From: Anadara kagoshimensis
Taxonomy: Eukaryota > Mollusca > Bivalvia > Arcoida > Arcidae
Length of the DNA: 64,000 nucleotides
Direction of reading: 5' to 3'
Assembly: GCA_021292105.1 (NCBI GenBank)
Contig: CM037874.1
Location: 53,612,540-53,676,539, forward strand
Shown: positions 3,321-54,106 of the stretch, piece after piece
How positions within the stretch are numbered: the stretch's first letter is position 1
How the letters are laid out: every line of letters begins with the position of its first letter
The notes under the pieces: model-generated
Told to the model about the DNA's origin: nothing
The model's database searches: none
Seen by the model: the letters and a program-made list of their open reading frames with translations, nothing else
Made by a program: the position numbers and the translations under genes

Positions 3321-32486
<29,166 letters not shown>

Positions 32487-35400
32487 TTCATGGATATTTT
32501 ATCTAGTTTTGTTGTCTTTTTGATTTATTTATTATTTTTACTTCCATTGATATTTTTTTTAAGTGGCTGGTAGACATCTTATAATTTAAGCAATTTTTTG
32601 GACCAATTATTTAATGTAAATTTCAGAAAATGATCTGTTTAATTTAAAAAGAACTATTGCATATTGAGTACGGTATTCTAAAATCCAACAAAAGAACACA
32701 TTTTTTCAGTCAAGGTACAAAAAGAGTAAAACCATACACAAGGGAGATAATTGTCCATGAACGTGAAATCATTTTCGTGATGTCCAATTTTCATGGATCA
32801 TTTAGAGGGTTTGTGGTTTCCATTCAAGGTAAGTTTGTGATACAGGTATAAATTATTTTGTTGAAATTTCAATTTGTGGGTCATAATTCCCACAAAAACA
32901 ATGAAAATTAGGACATCATAAAAGTCAATGATTTCAATGTATTAAGATTTAATTGCATTTAGCTGTGGCAATTTCTAGAATTTTGAAGATTTTTTTTTTT
33001 TTTGCCTGCAGAGTTTTACTAGAGTTAGAATATAAAATGTATAAAAAATGGAAATTGGGAATTTTAAGGTATTAAAAATCCAGTTATTTAACTTCAGAGA
33101 TGCCAGGTTGTATATCTCAAGTACAAATCACCATAAGAGAATTAAATGGGCTCTTTTTGATTTCAATAAAATAAAGTTAAACTTTGGAATTTCACACTCC
33201 AAATACAGTCATAGTTAATTTTTTTAAAAGTCTGAAATAATTGCCTTTCCCTTGTTAAGTATTGTTCTCGGGTAAAACCATTATGTGTTCATTATTATTA
33301 TCATCATTATATTATTATTTTGTGCAATATAATTTCTTTTTTGTTTTTTTAATTTTGTACATGATTTTAAGTTTTAACGCTGTCATTTATTCTCAATTTT
33401 CTTTGTTTTCTCATATTTTAATCTTGACATGTTTTATTTACATCTTAATTCAGCTACGTGCATTTTATTTTTAAAGGAATCTGTTAAAATTCCCTCTTGA
33501 TTTACAATGGAACGATTCATTTATGTCAGTTTTGGACTGTACCAACATGTCTAAAGGGATGAAAGGTTAAATTGATATTGGAAGGAGTGACCAAGTCACC
33601 AAATGTTTGTATTATGTTATATAATTCAGTGAAACATGATAAATCATTCTATAATCGTGACATTTTAATTCCATTTTGATGAAATTTAATTCTGAATTGC
33701 TAATAGATTTTATGAAAAAAATGAAAATAAATCATTCAATCATTCATTCTTGGAATATTAAAATGAAATCATTCATAATTTGAATATTAATCCTGATTAA
33801 CCCCTTAATTTATAATGGTATGACCCATTTCCTGTGATGATTGGATCATAGGTGTGTAAAGGGATTATTTGTATATGGCTTTAAATCATTAACTATTAAA
33901 GTTCAACTGTTATTTATATTAAATGATAAACCTAGTCATTACACATCTTATCCGGAATATATAATGTATTAATTTAATACTCCACATCACCACCAGGGGC
34001 TCACAAATCCCGATAATTTTTTCGACGATTTGAAGAAACCTTTTCATCATAGTGTTATATATTCAGATAATCTTAAACAATTTTTCTTTCGTATATAAAT
34101 AGATTTTTAAAAATATATATATTTCATTTATCATGTTTATATCAAGATGAAATTTCGAATAGAAAACAGAATGTCAGAAATCTGTAGGTTGATGTTGAAT
34201 GCATTAGTTTATTGTACTTGTTTGGTCTGGAGGTCTGGTCTTCAGACCAGTTTGAATTTGCATTTTCTGGTACAAGAAAAATTGGTGGGATTCTTATAAA
34301 ATGAACCAAACGATGTCAACAAATAATTGATTTTGAAATTGACCATTTTAAATCTGCCATTCCTGGTTACAAGAAAAAAGTGAGCATGCTTCAATGATAG
34401 ATGCACCAAGGAAGTCATATTTATGGTTTTACCTGTATATAAAGACCATCCATAGACCCAAGTTATGTGCACTTTATAGACAGGTGGTCATATTATAGAA
34501 TTTCTTTTTGGTTGAAATTTGATGCAACAGGACCTTAAAACATTAGTATTAATGGACAGATGGTCTTTATATAGAGGTGAAAATGGACAGATGGTCTTTA
34601 TATAGAGGTGAAAATGGACAGGTGGTCTTTATATAGAGGTGAAAATGGACAGATGGTCTTTATATAGAGGTGAAAATGAACAGATGGTCTTTATATAGAG
34701 GTGAAAATGAACAGATGGTCTTTATATAGAGGTGAAAATGGACAGATGGTCTTTAATTATATAGAGGTGAAAATGGACAGATGGTCTTTCTGTAGAGGTG
34801 AAAATGGACAGATGGCCTTTCTATAGAGGTGAAAATGGACAGATGGTCTTTATATAGAGGTAAATGCTGTTGCAGGTTTATTTGTATTTTGAAATTGACT
34901 ATAAAGCTTTGATGTCGCATGGTTAAGGTTTGAATTGTGGACTTTTGCCTGTAAGGGTTTGAATTATGGACTGTTGCCAGTACAAAGCCTACAACCCTTA
35001 TATTGGTAATATAAAGATAAATTAATTGTTTGAAAACTGTGTATGCCAGTATTCAGTACATGGCTCGCCATCAAATGTAAATTGATAGGATATAGTGCTA
35101 TATTGGATGTTGTGTTTAAGTGCGAATGAACTAGATTTTAATATTGATCTGTAGAGGTCATACATAATCGATGATTATAAATATTAATTATATCCTATGG
35201 AATATTAAATTTGTCAAATCTACAAGTAAGGGGAAATAACAATGGCAGATTCATCAGGTGGCTGATCTAGTGTTTAATAAGGAGAGGTTGATCTATAGTT
35301 TGTAATCTTTTTGATAATTTCTTTTCAAAATGTAGACAGAAGTCTAAAAAAAACTTGTTACTGCTAAATGTAAAATGACTATTTGAAACTATCACAAGTT

Positions 35401-41749: not shown

Positions 41750-42535
41750 TGACTAGTTCTTGTCTTTATAAACAGGTTTGACTAGGAAAAATCATATGAA
41801 CATAGAATAAAACCTGCTATGGTGGCCAACTCTATATAAATATCCCCTTTTCATTAAGACTAGTGTTTTAAATCCCTTTCTTAAAACCTGTTATAACCCT
41901 CACCTCTATATAAAGACCACCTGACCATACAGTAAAACCTGCTTTAGTGGCTAACTCTATATAATAAAGATCCTGTTTCCTTGAGGCCAGTGTTTTAAAT
42001 CCCTTTGTTAAAACCTGTTATAATATTCACCTCTATATAAAGACCATCTTACCATACAGTAAAACCTTCTATAGTGACCAACTCTATAAAAAGGTCCCCT
42101 TTTCTTTAAGACTAGTGTTTTAAATCTCTTTGTTAAAACCTGTTATAACAATCACCTCTATATAAAGACCACCTGTCTTTACAGTCCAATGTGTTATTAC
42201 AATCACCTCTATATAAAGAATACCTGTCTTTACAGTTAAATTACCTCTATATAAAGACCACTTGTATCTACAGTAAAACCTGTTATAGTGACCATATTTC
42301 TATAAAGACCACTGTCTTTACAATTAAATGTGTTATAACAATCACCTCTATATAAAGACCACCTTACCATGCAGTAAAACCTGCTATAGTAACCAACTCT
42401 ATATAAAGATCCCCTTTTCATTAAAACTAGTGTTTTAAATCCCTTTCATATTTCATTCATAAAGAACCTCTAGATAAAGTCCATATTTTAAGTTTCCACA
42501 GGTTGTCTTTATATACAGGTGTCACTGAATTTATA
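41750..42535. repeat. Tandem cluster of 'CAGTAAAACCTG' MITE fragments
   Basis: At least six repeats of 'acagtaaaacctgctatagt' followed by 'gaccaactctatataaag' and 'accacctgtctttacag', some with a 'tagtgttttaaatccctttc' spacer. Single copies near 5.3, 9.7, 13.6 and 43.5 kb have inverted ends like a MITE, so this cluster looks like tandem growth of a transposon end. Confidence 0.75.
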
Positions 42536-43660: not shown

Positions 43661-43783
43661 ATAATTTTTTTCAATGATCAAAACCTGTAAGATATTGAAA
43701 TATTATGTTAATAAAATTTAGACAAGCTCCTTTTAAACCTCTTAAAAATAGTGACAAGTTTATTGTGAAAATAATGTGGTCAA

Positions 43784-43973: not shown

Positions 43974-44764
43974 TGATTACATGGTCATGGGTTAGAACCC
44001 CAGACAAACAATTGTTACATATGTATGTGCCTGAACATGATATTTTACATCCGGTCCAGTCCACCAAGCTGACAAATGAATGGGTATGATATCAGCACAT
44101 ACGCTGACAGATTACTTTGCTTGCAAATGACTGGTTAATCCAATCCAAGGGAGTGGTGCCGAGTGGAGTGATGGTGTTTTACATCCTATCATTCTGGGAT
44201 GTTGGATGAAACTTGGCAAAGAAGCTTACTAACTTACTAGGATCTTCCACCAGGGAAGTGAGGCTGGGTGCTCGGATGACTGTATGGGAATCAAACCTAG
44301 GCAATGAGTGGTGCTATAATATGAACCACCAAACTAATTATGGGTCCTGTATTCTCAGTTGTATTATAAATGAAACAAGGTATAAGTACCGCAACTGTGT
44401 GATAAACCAACAGTCAAATGTCAGTTGCTATTGGTAACATATCACAATGTTATGTATCGGACAAATTTAACAAATAATGAAATAAATCTTGATGTTATGT
44501 GTTGTAGATAAAATACTGAATGTATTTAAGTACTTGGATGCTGAAGTCAATTTAAGTACAAACTAAAAAAAAAATTCAAAATGAACTTAAAATATCTATA
44601 TCAAAAAATAAAATTAATTTATACTTTGTCTATTTCAACTAAGTTTACAATGAATTAAATAATGAACAATTACTGTATAATTATTATAATCAAAATTATA
44701 TACATGTATTTACATGTATACTATATTCCATGCTTAAAGCCAAACTAGCTCCTCTCTCTCTCTA

Positions 44765-47700
44765 ATTTAAGTATGAAACCCTATGAAACACTTTCTAAAT
44801 ATGGAAGACCATACACACCATATCTGTGTGCAAATTTAAGTATGAAAACACTTCTAAATATGGAGGACTATACACACCATATCTGCGTGTGAAATTTAAG
44901 TATGAACACTTCTAAATATGGAGGACCATACACATCATATCTGTGGTGAATTTTAAGTATGAAACACTTCTAATATGGAAGACTATCCACACCATATCGT
45001 GTGTGAAATTTAAGTATGAAACACTTCTAAATATGGAAGACTATAACACACCATATCTGCGTGTGAAATTTAAGTATGAACATTTCTAAATATGGAGGAC
45101 CATACACACCATATCTGTGTGTGAAATTTAAGTATGGAACACTTCTAAAAATGGAAGACCATACACACCATATCTGTGTGTGAAATTTAAGTATGAAACA
45201 CTTCTAAAAATGGAGGACCATACACACCATATCTGTATGTGAAATTTAAGTATGAACATTTCTAAATATGGAGGACCATACACACCATATCTGTGAGTGA
45301 AATTTAAGTATGGAACACTTCTAAAAAATGAAGACCATACACACCATATCTGTGTTGAAATTTAAGTATGGAACACTTTCTAAAAATGGAAGACCATACA
45401 CACCATATCTGTGTGTGAAATTTAAGTATGGGAACACTTCTAAAATGGAAGACCATACACACCATATCTGTGTGTGAAATTTAAGTATGGAACACTTCTA
45501 AAAATGGAAGACCATACACACCAATCTGTGTGTGAAATTTAAGTATGGAACACTTCTAAAAATGGAAAGACCATACACACCATATCTGTGTGTGAAATTA
45601 AGTATGGAACACTTCTAAAAAATGGAAGACCATACACACCATATCTGTGTGTGAAATTTAAGTATGAAACACTTCTAAATATGGAGGACCATACACACCA
45701 TATCTGTGTGTGAAATTTAAGTATGGAACACTTCTAAAAAGGAAGAACCATACACACCATATCTGTGTGTGAAATTTAAGTATGAAACACTTCTAAATAT
45801 GGAGGACCATACACACCATATCTGTGTGTGAAATTTAAGTATGGAACACTTCTAAAAATGGAAGACTATACACACCATATCTGTGTGTGAAATTTAAGTA
45901 TGGAACACTTCTAAAAATGGAAGACCATACACACCATATCTGTGTGTGAAATTTAAGTATGAAACACTTCTAAATATGGAGGACCATACACACCATATCT
46001 GTGTGTGAAATTTAAGTATGGAACACTTCTAAAAATGGAAGACTATACACACCATATCTGTGTGTGAAATTTAAGTATGGAACACTTCTAAAAATGGAAG
46101 ACTATACACACCATATCTGTGTGTGAAATTTAAGTATGGAACACTTCTAAAAATGGAAGACTATACACACCATATCTGTGTGTGAAATTTAAGTATGGAA
46201 CACTTCTAAAAATGGAAGACCATACACACCATATCTGTGTGTGAAATTTAAGTATGAAACACTTCTAAATATGGAGGACCATACACACCATATCTGCGTG
46301 TGAAATTTAAGTATGGAACACTTCTAAATATGGAAGACCATACACACCATATCTGTGTGTGAAATTTAAGTATGGAACACTTCTAAATATGGAGGACCAT
46401 ACACACCATATCTGTGTGTGAAATTTAAGTATGGAACACTTCTAAATATGGAGGACCATACACACCATATCTGTGTGTGAAATTTAAGTATGGAACACTT
46501 CTAAATATGGAAGACCATACACTCCATATCTGTGTGTGAAATTTAAGTATGGAACACTTCTAAATATGGAAGACCATACACACCATATCTGTGTGTGAAA
46601 TTTAAGTATGGAACACTTCTAAAAATGGAAGACTATACACACCATATCTGTGTGTGAAATTTAAGTATGGAACACTTCTAAATATGGAGGACCATACACA
46701 CCATATCTGCGTGTGAAATTTAAGTATGGAACACTTCTAAATATGGAAGACCATACACACCATATCTGCGTGTGAAATTTAAGTATGGAACACTTCTAAA
46801 AATGGAAGACTATACACACCATATCTGTGTGTGAAATTTAAGTATGGAACACTTCTAAAAATGGAAGACTATACACACCATATCTGTGTGTGAAATTTAA
46901 GTATGGAACACTTCTAAATATGGAGGACCATACACACCATATCTGCGTGTGAAATTTAAGTATGGAACACTTCTAAAAATGGAAGACTATACACACCATA
47001 TCTGTGTGTGAAATTTAAGTATGGAACACTTCTAAATATGGAGGACCATACACACCATATCTGTGTGTGAAATTTAAGTATGGAACACTTCTAAATATGG
47101 AGGACCATACACACCATATCTGTGTGTGAAATTTAAGTATGGAACACTTCTAAATATGGAAGACCATACACACCATATCTGTGTGTGAAATTTAAGTATG
47201 GAACACTTCTAAATATGGAAGACCATACACACCATATCTGTGTGTGAAATTTAAGTATGGAACACTTCTAAAAATGGAAGACTATACACACCATATCTGT
47301 GTGTGAAATTTAAGTATGGAACACTTCTAAATATGGAGGACCATACACACCATATCTGTGTGTGAAATTTAAGTATGGAACACTTCTAAATATGGAGGAC
47401 CATACACACCATATCTGTGTGTGAAATTTAAGTATGGAACACTTCTAAATATGGAAGACCATACACACCATATCTGTGTGTGAAATTTAAGTATGAAACA
47501 CTTCTAAATATGGAGGACCATACACACCATATCTGTGTGTGAAATTTAAGTATGGAACACTTCTAAAAATGGAAGACCATACACACCATATCTGTGTGTG
47601 AAATTTAAGTATGAAACACTTCTAAATATGGAGGACCATACACACCATATCTGTGTGTGAAATTTAAGTATGGAACACTTCTAAAAATGGAAGACCATAC

Positions 47701-47942
47701 ACACCATATCTGTGTGTGAAATTTAAGTATGAAACACTTCTAAATATGGAGGACCATACACACCATATCTGTGTGTGAAATTTAAGTATGGAACACTTCT
47801 AAAAATGGAAGACCATACACACCATATCTGTGTGTGAAATTTAAGTATGGAACACTTCTAAAAATGGAAGACCATACACACCATATCTGTGTGTGAAATT
47901 TAAGTATGGAACACTTCTAAAAATGGAAGACCATACACACCA
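44765..47942 (-). repeat. 59-bp minisatellite (~54 copies) derived from the GT62 gene 3' end
   Basis: Spacing of 'ccatatctg' is 59 bp over most of the array. Read on the minus strand each unit contains the codons for YGVYGLPFLEVFHT and a TAA stop, then 'atttcacacaca'. The copy at 47900-47942 is the real end of the glycosyltransferase gene, so the unit is a piece of coding sequence plus 3'UTR. Two main variants occur, 'ctaaaaatggaagac' and 'ctaaatatggaggac', and they alternate in places (47.46-47.82 kb). Copies at the gene-distal end (44.77-45.6 kb) carry many indels; gene-proximal ones are nearly identical. Because 59 is not a multiple of three and each unit ends in a stop, the array cannot extend the protein; if transcribed it would be 3'UTR. 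Confidence 0.96.
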
Positions 47943-49024
47943 TAACCCATACTTAAAGCTAATTTAGCAAGACCTTCAGTTTCGATATGGTGATTAAATA
48001 CTTCCTCTGGAAATTTTAAGCCATTTTTGTGACATTTCCCTTTAATTAATAACGTACAGCCACCTACGCCATCTAATTTTACGATTCTACCTTCTGCTCG
48101 TAAATGAGATAGGTATATCCTACTTGTGTCATCATATCCCTCCACAATTAACTGACTTTTATCTGGCAGATGTGCCTGTTCTTCAAGTGATCTTGGAGTT
48201 TCTCTCCAGGAATTTTTATCATATATCCGAACATATTTCCCACTGTTGTACAAACAGGTGGCAGCAACAACATCTTTATTTGCAAATAACAACTGCTCTA
48301 CAAGATCATCTGGTAAAAACTTGATATCGCTGTCAATCCATAGGACATAATCTTCATTTTGAAAACTTGCATTCAGAAGCAGGTTACGAGCTTGGGCTAA
48401 ATGTCTTCGTCTTTGGTACTGAAAATCTTTTTCATGCACTTTTCTAAAATCACCATAAATTTTAGATGACATATTAAAAGAATACAATGAAATTTTTGAA
48501 AATCCAGACTTTTTTAATTCCTTTATGACATCCTGTGTTACTTGTACTGTATTGTCACTACTGCCATCCTCTCCAAACGCAATGGATATCTGTGCATGAG
48601 GGTATTTCAACTCATGTAACTGAAGGGCATATTTCTCTAAAGATTTAGCACTGTTGTGAATCGGTGTCAATATTAGAATTTTCTCTATGTATTTCCTAGG
48701 CTCCAATTTCAAATATTCCACCAAGATATCTTTTGAAAGACGGTGAACATAATCTGTATTTGAATATGGCGGGACTGGAGGAATTTGGAGGTAAATACCT
48801 TCAGGATTTTTCCTGTAAGTTAGCGGAATTTTAGTCCAGTCAGGAGCATGAGGGTCATTATTTAGATAATATTCTTCAGCAGAATCAGTGCCATCTGTAC
48901 TTAAAATGCCACCTAAGAGTTTGGGATAAATGTAATTCACTAGAATAAGAGAAATGACAGCAACCAAAACCAAAACCAAGATGAAGCGAATCCAATTGGG
49001 GCTCTTTCCTTTTTTTGCTACCAT
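47900..49024 (-). CDS. Anp1/Mnn9/Van1-family (GT62) glycosyltransferase
   Basis: 374 codons in one exon. Residues 11-33 form a single hydrophobic helix after a basic start, so this is a type II Golgi-type membrane protein. The lumenal domain shows the family motifs in order: ILILTPIHN (116-124), YPHAQISIAFGEDGSSDNT (141-159), RRRHLAQARN (206-214), the metal-binding DSD in YVLWIDSDI (226-234), NSWRETP (271-277), VEGYDD (294-299), LDGVGG (317-322), HHIETEGLAKLA (345-356) and the C-terminal VYGLP (363-367). In yeasts these proteins form mannan polymerase and add alpha-mannose; the substrate here is unknown. Length is typical. An acceptor-like TTTTTCAG lies ten bases before the ATG (exon start at about 49033), so a 5'UTR intron is likely. 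The last codons are the minisatellite unit. Family call secure; function in an animal inferred. Confidence 0.92.
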   Translation of the reverse strand: MVAKKGKSPNWIRFILVLVLVAVISLILVNYIYPKLLGGILSTDGTDSAEEYYLNNDPHAPDWTKIPLTYRKNPEGIYLQIPPVPPYSNTDYVHRLSKDILVEYLKLEPRKYIEKILILTPIHNSAKSLEKYALQLHELKYPHAQISIAFGEDGSSDNTVQVTQDVIKELKKSGFSKISLYSFNMSSKIYGDFRKVHEKDFQYQRRRHLAQARNLLLNASFQNEDYVLWIDSDIKFLPDDLVEQLLFANKDVVAATCLYNSGKYVRIYDKNSWRETPRSLEEQAHLPDKSQLIVEGYDDTSRIYLSHLRAEGRIVKLDGVGGCTLLIKGKCHKNGLKFPEEVFNHHIETEGLAKLALSMGYGVYGLPFLEVFHT

Positions 49025-52538: not shown

Positions 52539-54106
52539 TCAATGTATGTTTTCTTCCCTTTCTGGGTCTTTGGTGCATTTTGGATTTTTAGATGTCCACA
52601 CAGATGTATATGCCCTGTCAACATTTTCATTCCAGTGACAAACAGCTAATTGTCCTCTGAACCTATACTGGTCATCACTGAAAGAAATCCTCTTGTCTTG
52701 GAACACATTCATTACATTGTTAAAACTCTCAACATATGATGTGTCTTTTCCCAAAACATAATCTTGTGGATATCTATAGATGGACGATTTCTCTAGCACA
52801 GTTTTTAAAAGAATTTGAGCCTTTTTACTACAGATCAGTTCTCTGGAAGGTTCATAATTTGGATCAGATCTGCATCTTGAAGACTCATGACAACCAGAGT
52901 GAATGTTCCTATAGTGATCAAGAATTTATTCATATGAAAACGTAATTTCTCCGGGTCCTGGTTACAATTTCGAACAGCCCAGTGAATATGCTTGGCTATC
53001 GGTTCAACTTTGTCAGAAAGTTGTTGACTCCATTTTACTCCCTCGTAAATTTTGGGTCCTTTGGAAATATTTGTGACTGCTTTTTTTATTTGTTTTACTG
53101 CATGCCAAAGATCATTTTGGTTTGTTGTAAATCCTGAATCGCGAATATACTTATTGATGGACAAGTTTCTGTCATGTGTATGTACATTTACATCAACATT
53201 TCTCTCATTTAAATGATGGTATATTTTCTCTGTCCCTAAAAATTCGTGTCTCTGTGAAACCTTGTCATCAGCTTTAGTTACATGGACACACTCGATAACT
53301 TTGTGTATGTTTTCTCCAATGGCAACTACAGATGTGTCTTTGGAATTCTTTCTCCATCCATGTCTGGCATCAGTCATCATATTTATGCCACTCAAGTCTT
53401 CATACGAGCCTATTTCTTCATTGAGGGCATCATTTATTGACTCTTCATATATTTCCTTTGTTTTTTCTTTATAAACTTTAAAGAACTCCTTCCTCCTTGG
53501 TTTGTTGATAAACCCAATTCTAACGGCATTGCAAAATCTTGTGTAATGAATTGGTAGCATTCCACTAGTGAGGAGTCCATGATTTATCCTACTGTTCAGA
53601 AGGTATTCATTATTTGGCAAGTATGGAGAAGATGACCAAAGATATGAATGATTCTTTTCACGTTCACATTGTAAACGGATTGCTGCTACATGTCCTTTCA
53701 TTGTTGATTTACTTATCTTTAATTTGCCCTTACAAATACAGGTATGCGCCTCGAACACCTCTCCGAAAATTGACAACGATGACCTTGCTGTCATGAATGC
53801 AACTTCATCTACATGTTCTCGATCAGTCTGATTATATAGAATTGGAAATGGGTGGTTTTCAGGCATTTCAGGTTCTTCGTTAACTTGATTTTGAATCCAA
53901 AATTCTAACAACTGTTCCATTACCATGCCATTGTCAATTCGTTTCTTGTTCATCTTTTTCATTATGAAATATTTCACACTTTGAAACTGAGTTTGGATTT
54001 TCAATTTGAATTCTCCGTCTCCAGGAATTTCAATACGGAAATTTGATGGTCGCTTTTGTATTGGGTCTGTCATGATGAAATTAGTCTTAGTAAAACAATT
54101 AAACAA
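52539..54106 (-). pseudogene. Kolobok-like DDE transposase, one frameshift
   Basis: A 423-codon ORF (52835-54106; the ATG at 54073 is an alternative start) continues one frame over into 52539-52930. Candidate catalytic acids are D in NMMTDARHGW, D in VHTHDRNLSINKYI and, after the shift, E in TSYVESFNNV, followed by FQDKRISFSDDQYRFRGQLA and CHWNENVDR. This layout, with a VES.N motif late in the protein, resembles Kolobok-type transposases; the superfamily call is from memory of such motifs and is moderate. The shift lies at about 52920-52926 (TTCTTG on the coding strand), where one base appears lost; after it the reading gives HYRNIHSGCHESSRCRSDP. No other disabling change was seen, so decay is recent or the shift is a sequence error. 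Confidence 0.72.

Follow-up and report, generated by a model that had tools for sequence, protein, structure and literature searches.

A tandem array of some 54 units begins inside the end of a GT62/Anp1-family glycosyltransferase gene in the window (the whole stretch of 64,000 nucleotides analysed here), and the locus raises a question of direction: did the end of the gene give rise to the repeats, or did a repeat from elsewhere give the gene its last codons? We are confident in the first answer, in which the 59-bp end of a single-copy GT62 gene was duplicated in place and expanded to about 54 copies, with the coding copy as unit 1, and the array is a real, local minisatellite, most likely born of the gene.

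Anatomy of the array and decay of its gene-distant copies

TRF reports a single 59-bp tandem array at positions 44782-47944 of the window, with 53.7 copies, 94% matches and a score of 5575, and its head-to-tail units fall within the ~10-100 bp of a minisatellite. Together with unit-by-unit alignment, it places the repeats on the minus strand, in the orientation of the GT62 gene. The runner-up array anywhere in the window, with 16 copies of a 65-bp unit at 5862-6887, scores 1485. Unit 1 (47886-47944, minus strand) consists of 42 nt that encode YGVYGLPFLEVFHT (47944-47903), the stop codon TAA (47902-47900) and a further 14 nt, ATTTCACACACAGA; unit 2 starts directly after it, at 47885, and unit 1 is the sole copy within the GT62 reading frame. 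TRF, the ORF and the unit coordinates agree with the earlier note that a minus-strand unit of 59 bp, in ~54 copies, encodes the last 14 GT62 residues plus the stop codon, and that the gene ends within the first unit, inside which the ORF's stop lies. The span given there (44765-47942) differs from that of TRF mainly at its left edge, which was set 17 nt past the TRF edge.

The copies distant from the gene have decayed. Units 2-37 (45762-47885, minus strand) are free of indels (0 of 36), and their substitutions lie nearly all at unit positions 13, 17, 23, 36 and 55, whereas 13 of the 17 units in the distal part (units 38-54; 44782-45761, minus strand) carry indels. Counted over units 2-54, these five positions differ from unit 1 in 12, 20, 28, 12 and 6 of 53 units, respectively, and seven units (2, 3, 5, 7, 30, 35 and 48) are identical to unit 1 over all 59 nt. 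The total distance to unit 1 grows with position (Spearman 0.43, p 0.001) and the substitution-only distance follows a weak trend (Spearman 0.25, p 0.07), with both p-values descriptive only because the units are not independent. A deletion at the same position is common to units 46, 49 and 52, which points to copying, rather than sequencing error, as the source of at least some of the distal indels; single distal indels could be sequencing errors. As for higher-order repeats within units 1-37, identical pairs at lag 2 number 7 of 35, compared with 4.88 (sd 1.97) in shuffles, and the lag with the most identical pairs besides this one is lag 4 (9 of 33), the shuffles having been run for lag 2.

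A long repeat protein read through the array is ruled out, as no stop-free stretch is longer than 77 residues (minus strand) or 57 residues (plus strand). Elsewhere in the window, the consensus units of arrays at 9761-9877, 34551-34861 and 41797-42409 share CACCTCTATATAAAGACCA in one or other orientation, so that a related repeat lies at three places, and a 423-codon ORF at 52835-54106 (minus strand) matches a Mutator-like transposase (PF20700, 1.8e-07).

The GT62 gene and the polarity of the proposed duplication

The host gene (CDS 47900-49024, minus strand) is a single uninterrupted coding exon whose ORF translation is a protein of 374 aa terminating in KLALSMGYGVYGLPFLEVFHT and the stop. 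The protein matches the Pfam family Anp1 (PF03452) at 7.9e-52, with 176.7 bits against a cut-off of 28.8, which bears out the earlier assignment of the gene to GT62, and the yeast Mnn9 chain 3zf8_A matches it at 2.2e-32. By these two matches, its sequence family is that of the GT62 mannosyltransferases (Mnn9/Van1/Anp1), and on sequence grounds its product is a member of this mannosyltransferase-type family. Close to the N-terminus, residues ~14-29 are hydrophobic, as read from the sequence, and resemble a membrane anchor, and a single-sequence fold of the product reached a mean pLDDT of 41.6, too poor for use. Directly upstream of the ATG, TTTTTCAG resembles the splice acceptor of a 5′UTR intron. 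Across the genome (1.115 Gb, 36 contigs), this gene is the sole match for both the protein query and the PF03452 family, and no donor paralogue is therefore visible.

One line of evidence on polarity is the homology that runs into the unit. Mnn9 aligns with the GT62 protein without a gap over 27 residues to the end (one side reads IETEGLAKLALSMGYGVYGLPFLEVFH), the GT62 protein being one residue (T) longer at the C-terminus, and within the end encoded by the unit, Y361, V363, G365, L366, P367, V371 and H373 are identical in Mnn9. The comparable C-terminus comes from one homologue, yeast Mnn9, which is 37% identical in alignment A1. Because this alignment is ungapped to the end, the array unit seems to encode an ending native to the GT62 family rather than a foreign tail. 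The earlier statement that VYGLP is conserved in the family is right in substance, as Mnn9 has VFGLP, and rests on that one homologue; likewise, the comparison with an orthologous C-terminus proposed at the time has the collinear end of yeast Mnn9 as its sole comparator. The gene-first claim of the earlier note thus draws support from the Mnn9 homology into the unit, the single locus of the full unit, the sole family match in the genome and the pattern of variants, and we regard this polarity as well supported, along with the restriction of the full unit to a single locus.

In the sequence of events that we propose, a 59-bp segment made up of the 14 terminal codons, the stop and the adjoining 14 nt of 3′UTR would have been tandemly duplicated in place, after which replication slippage and/or unequal exchange would have expanded it to about 54 copies, with the coding copy still in service as unit 1. 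The seed region contains an 11-bp inverted repeat whose upstream arm, TTTAAGTATGG, lies at 47947-47957 and whose other arm, CCATACTTAAA, which contains the stop codon, lies at 47899-47909, both on the minus strand, so as to enclose the greater part of the coding segment in unit 1. Within 44700-48000 (minus strand), the TTTAAGTATGG arm occurs once and the CCATACTTAAA arm 38 times. A putative hairpin formed at this inverted repeat may have aided the initial slippage.

Directly beyond the distal end of the array, 54 nt (44696-44749, minus strand) resemble the gene immediately upstream of and into unit 1, GCTAAATTAGCTTTAAGTATGGGTTATGG, with a score of 36; none of 1270 window pieces scored as well, and 3 of 1000 shuffles did. 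Four scoring schemes were run against a wider null of 1728 pieces, which takes in the C6, C17 and C2 loci chosen for their likeness to the unit, and 27, 27, 98 and 328 pieces, respectively, did as well. The distal flank is a possible, weak candidate for an old degenerate duplicate of the gene end.

Turnover, function and older repeats as alternatives

The peptides that the copies would encode in the gene frame were tabulated for all 54 units, unit 1 included, with the 13 indel units set aside. Among the 40 indel-free copies besides unit 1, 7 keep the exact gene peptide, 7 change F to Y, and 26 untranslated copies have the GLP broken (9 SLP, 16 GPP and 1 GLH), while the coding copy is intact. 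Since Mnn9 has the G, the L and the P, the GLP-altered copies are most simply read as the derived type. It would be natural for selection to have kept unit 1 at the ancestral type, although one unit cannot prove it; under the proposed mechanism, turnover would include unit 1, and selection on its GLP-containing coding block would hold the ancestral type.

A stronger form of this exchange has the coding copy and the array evolving in concert, with the selected, translated unit reseeding the array and the array in turn rewriting the C-terminus (GLP to GPP or SLP) and the mRNA tail. We give it a minor share of probability, and if it were true, the end of a glycosyltransferase would be under repeat-driven mutation. 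Alteration of the GT62 C-terminus by slippage or conversion, a consequence drawn in the earlier note, is plausible, and should alleles show that unit 1 and the array exchange sequence, the C-terminus of a protein would be directly exposed to repeat turnover.

The array may also be carried in the mRNA. A scan for poly(A) hexamers of 11 types finds none on the minus strand within the array, the nearest beyond it being AATATA at 44727; behind the gene, AATAAA first occurs at 43759-43764 (minus strand), and a conventional transcript would therefore carry ~3.2 kb of repeats. Such a long repeat-bearing transcript, reading across all units and ending at a poly(A) signal on their far side, is plausible.

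One alternative is that the array itself is selected, the GT62 transcript being regulated either by tandem hairpins in a 3′UTR that measures 3.2 kb or more or by the recurring TTTCACACACAG, and in its favour one can cite the lack of poly(A) hexamers inside the array, the 41 copies of the acceptor-like TTTCACACACAG and the folding of a 198-nt piece (gene end plus three units) at a z of -3.17, with 1 of 200 shuffles as good. However, the fold comes from one stretch without a control array, and the distal third has decayed while copies vary freely at positions 13, 17, 23, 36 and 55, both of which one would expect without constraint. We consider such selection improbable, even if it fares best of the three alternatives, and we think that a function of the array is unnecessary as an explanation.

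The other two alternatives concern older repeats, and the genome searches that bear on them score the best candidates and pass over very common words. With that scope, a 118-nt query against its own genome found 53 of 53 places in the array or at its gene edge, and a 26-mer of the unit's second half, allowed up to 3 mismatches in the 1.1-Gb genome, found 47 of 47 in the array, with 0 places for a reversed-pattern control. The 18-mer GGTGTGTATGGTCTTCCA, allowed up to 2 mismatches, has 110 genome matches compared with 24 for its reversed control; its exact places all lie in the array (19 of 19), and among the matches listed, those with one mismatch fall to 28 of 33 in the array and 5 of 33 in a 53-bp array on C6. 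The four other loci that were aligned to the unit (C6, C17, C2 and one of 14 AGAGTGTATGG places) match it over just 15-30 nt each, with the best alignments of the C17 and C2 arrays spanning 20 and 21 nt. Shuffle counts for C6, C17 and C2 (0 of 2000 each) are invalid as significance because the loci were chosen by genome search. We take these likenesses for coincidences in a genome rich in repeats, probably so in the case of C6. The earlier note had named the presence of the same satellite at many unrelated loci as an observation that would speak against a gene-first origin; in these best-candidate searches, the outcome favours the note, as the unit did not turn up in arrays at several loci, apart from the partial 30-nt likeness on C6.

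The C6 array (C6:25568879-25570359 of genome G000; L019 2880-4360) has 53-bp units with 38-bp variants and starts ~80 nt past a possible splice acceptor. The best local alignment of its unit with that of the present array has 26 of 30 nt identical, in a shared coding frame and with a GxYGLP reading, and both arrays might descend from one older GxYGLPxL-coding element, the gene end being the seed here yet not unique. Common descent of the two would make for a more complex history than a single in-place duplication. Against this, the alignment ends after 30 nt, such a likeness has many opportunities to arise in 1.1 Gb of sequence (24 matches came from the reversed 18-mer control alone), there is no GT62 protein match on C6, and the C6 array, used as a DNA query, returns 2 of 2 places on C6 and nowhere else. 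Shared ancestry seems to us slightly less probable still than selection on the array.

Least likely of all, and in our judgement very improbable, is the insertion at the gene end of a pre-existing satellite, or of a mobile element with internal tandem repeats, that donated the last codons: the C6, C17 and C2 arrays do have 20-30 nt in common with the unit and the 18-mer AGAGTGTATGGTCTTCCA recurs at 14 places among the matches listed, but in those searches the unit's second half is confined to the array, the Mnn9 homology spans the unit's coding part, and of the best 40 of 61 candidates scored for the 682-nt distal flank, one is a full match (itself) and the other 39 are 31-42 nt pieces that all belong to one dispersed stretch, with no recurrence of the flank as a mobile element would show. 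Some 33 nt of this flank (44241-44273) recur at many places in the genome and may mark where a mobile element ends.

Comparison with known systems

This animal GT62 gene may be worth more attention than the array. The same genome has 68 exon-level matches to the Wnt family, which is taken to be animal-specific. On C4 (C4:4487676-4537603; L037-L039), COX1-like stretches occur at three places within 50 kb, with in-frame TGA as in the animal mitochondrial code, and are either nuclear mitochondrial DNA insertions or misjoined mitochondrial sequence. PMC5225481 reports PF03452/GT62 in fungi only among the genomes sampled there, whereas the present gene sits in an animal genome; horizontal transfer or wider retention in animals may each explain it. 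One open-licence literature collection yielded no report of a molluscan GT62, and PMC5872309 names GT62 and molluscs in unrelated contexts. Degenerate scans of viral and prokaryote contig collections, with the protein alone and with a protein and Mnn9 alignment, gave no GT62 relatives and, given the nature of those collections, have no bearing on animal orthologues.

With regard to the array, the open-licence literature, judged by titles and the starts of abstracts, yielded no account of comparable amplification at the end of a gene. Variable repeats at gene ends are known from the 40-bp VNTR in the 3′UTR of DAT1 and the last-exon VNTR of CEL, which share with the present array tandem, local units of 10-100 bp at the 3′ end of a gene. 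Here, by contrast, the unit straddles the coding end, the stop and the 3′UTR, its 59 bp are not a multiple of 3, and the first copy alone stands in the gene's reading frame. The copies of coding minisatellites such as the Prdm9 zinc-finger array are translated, whereas 53 copies here lie behind a stop codon; the two are alike in that a gene segment is turned over by repeat dynamics. A further parallel is the origin of new satellite repeats from a duplicated genomic segment, with slippage or unequal crossing over to follow; the example in the review PMC7767330, MsH42, arose in an intron, while the source here is a gene end still apparently in use. The array looks like a clear, local case of an already known kind of event, and it shows how a minisatellite can come about: its probable source can still be recognised as the end of a gene, an outgroup protein reveals the polarity, and the copies that have decayed are those remote from that source.
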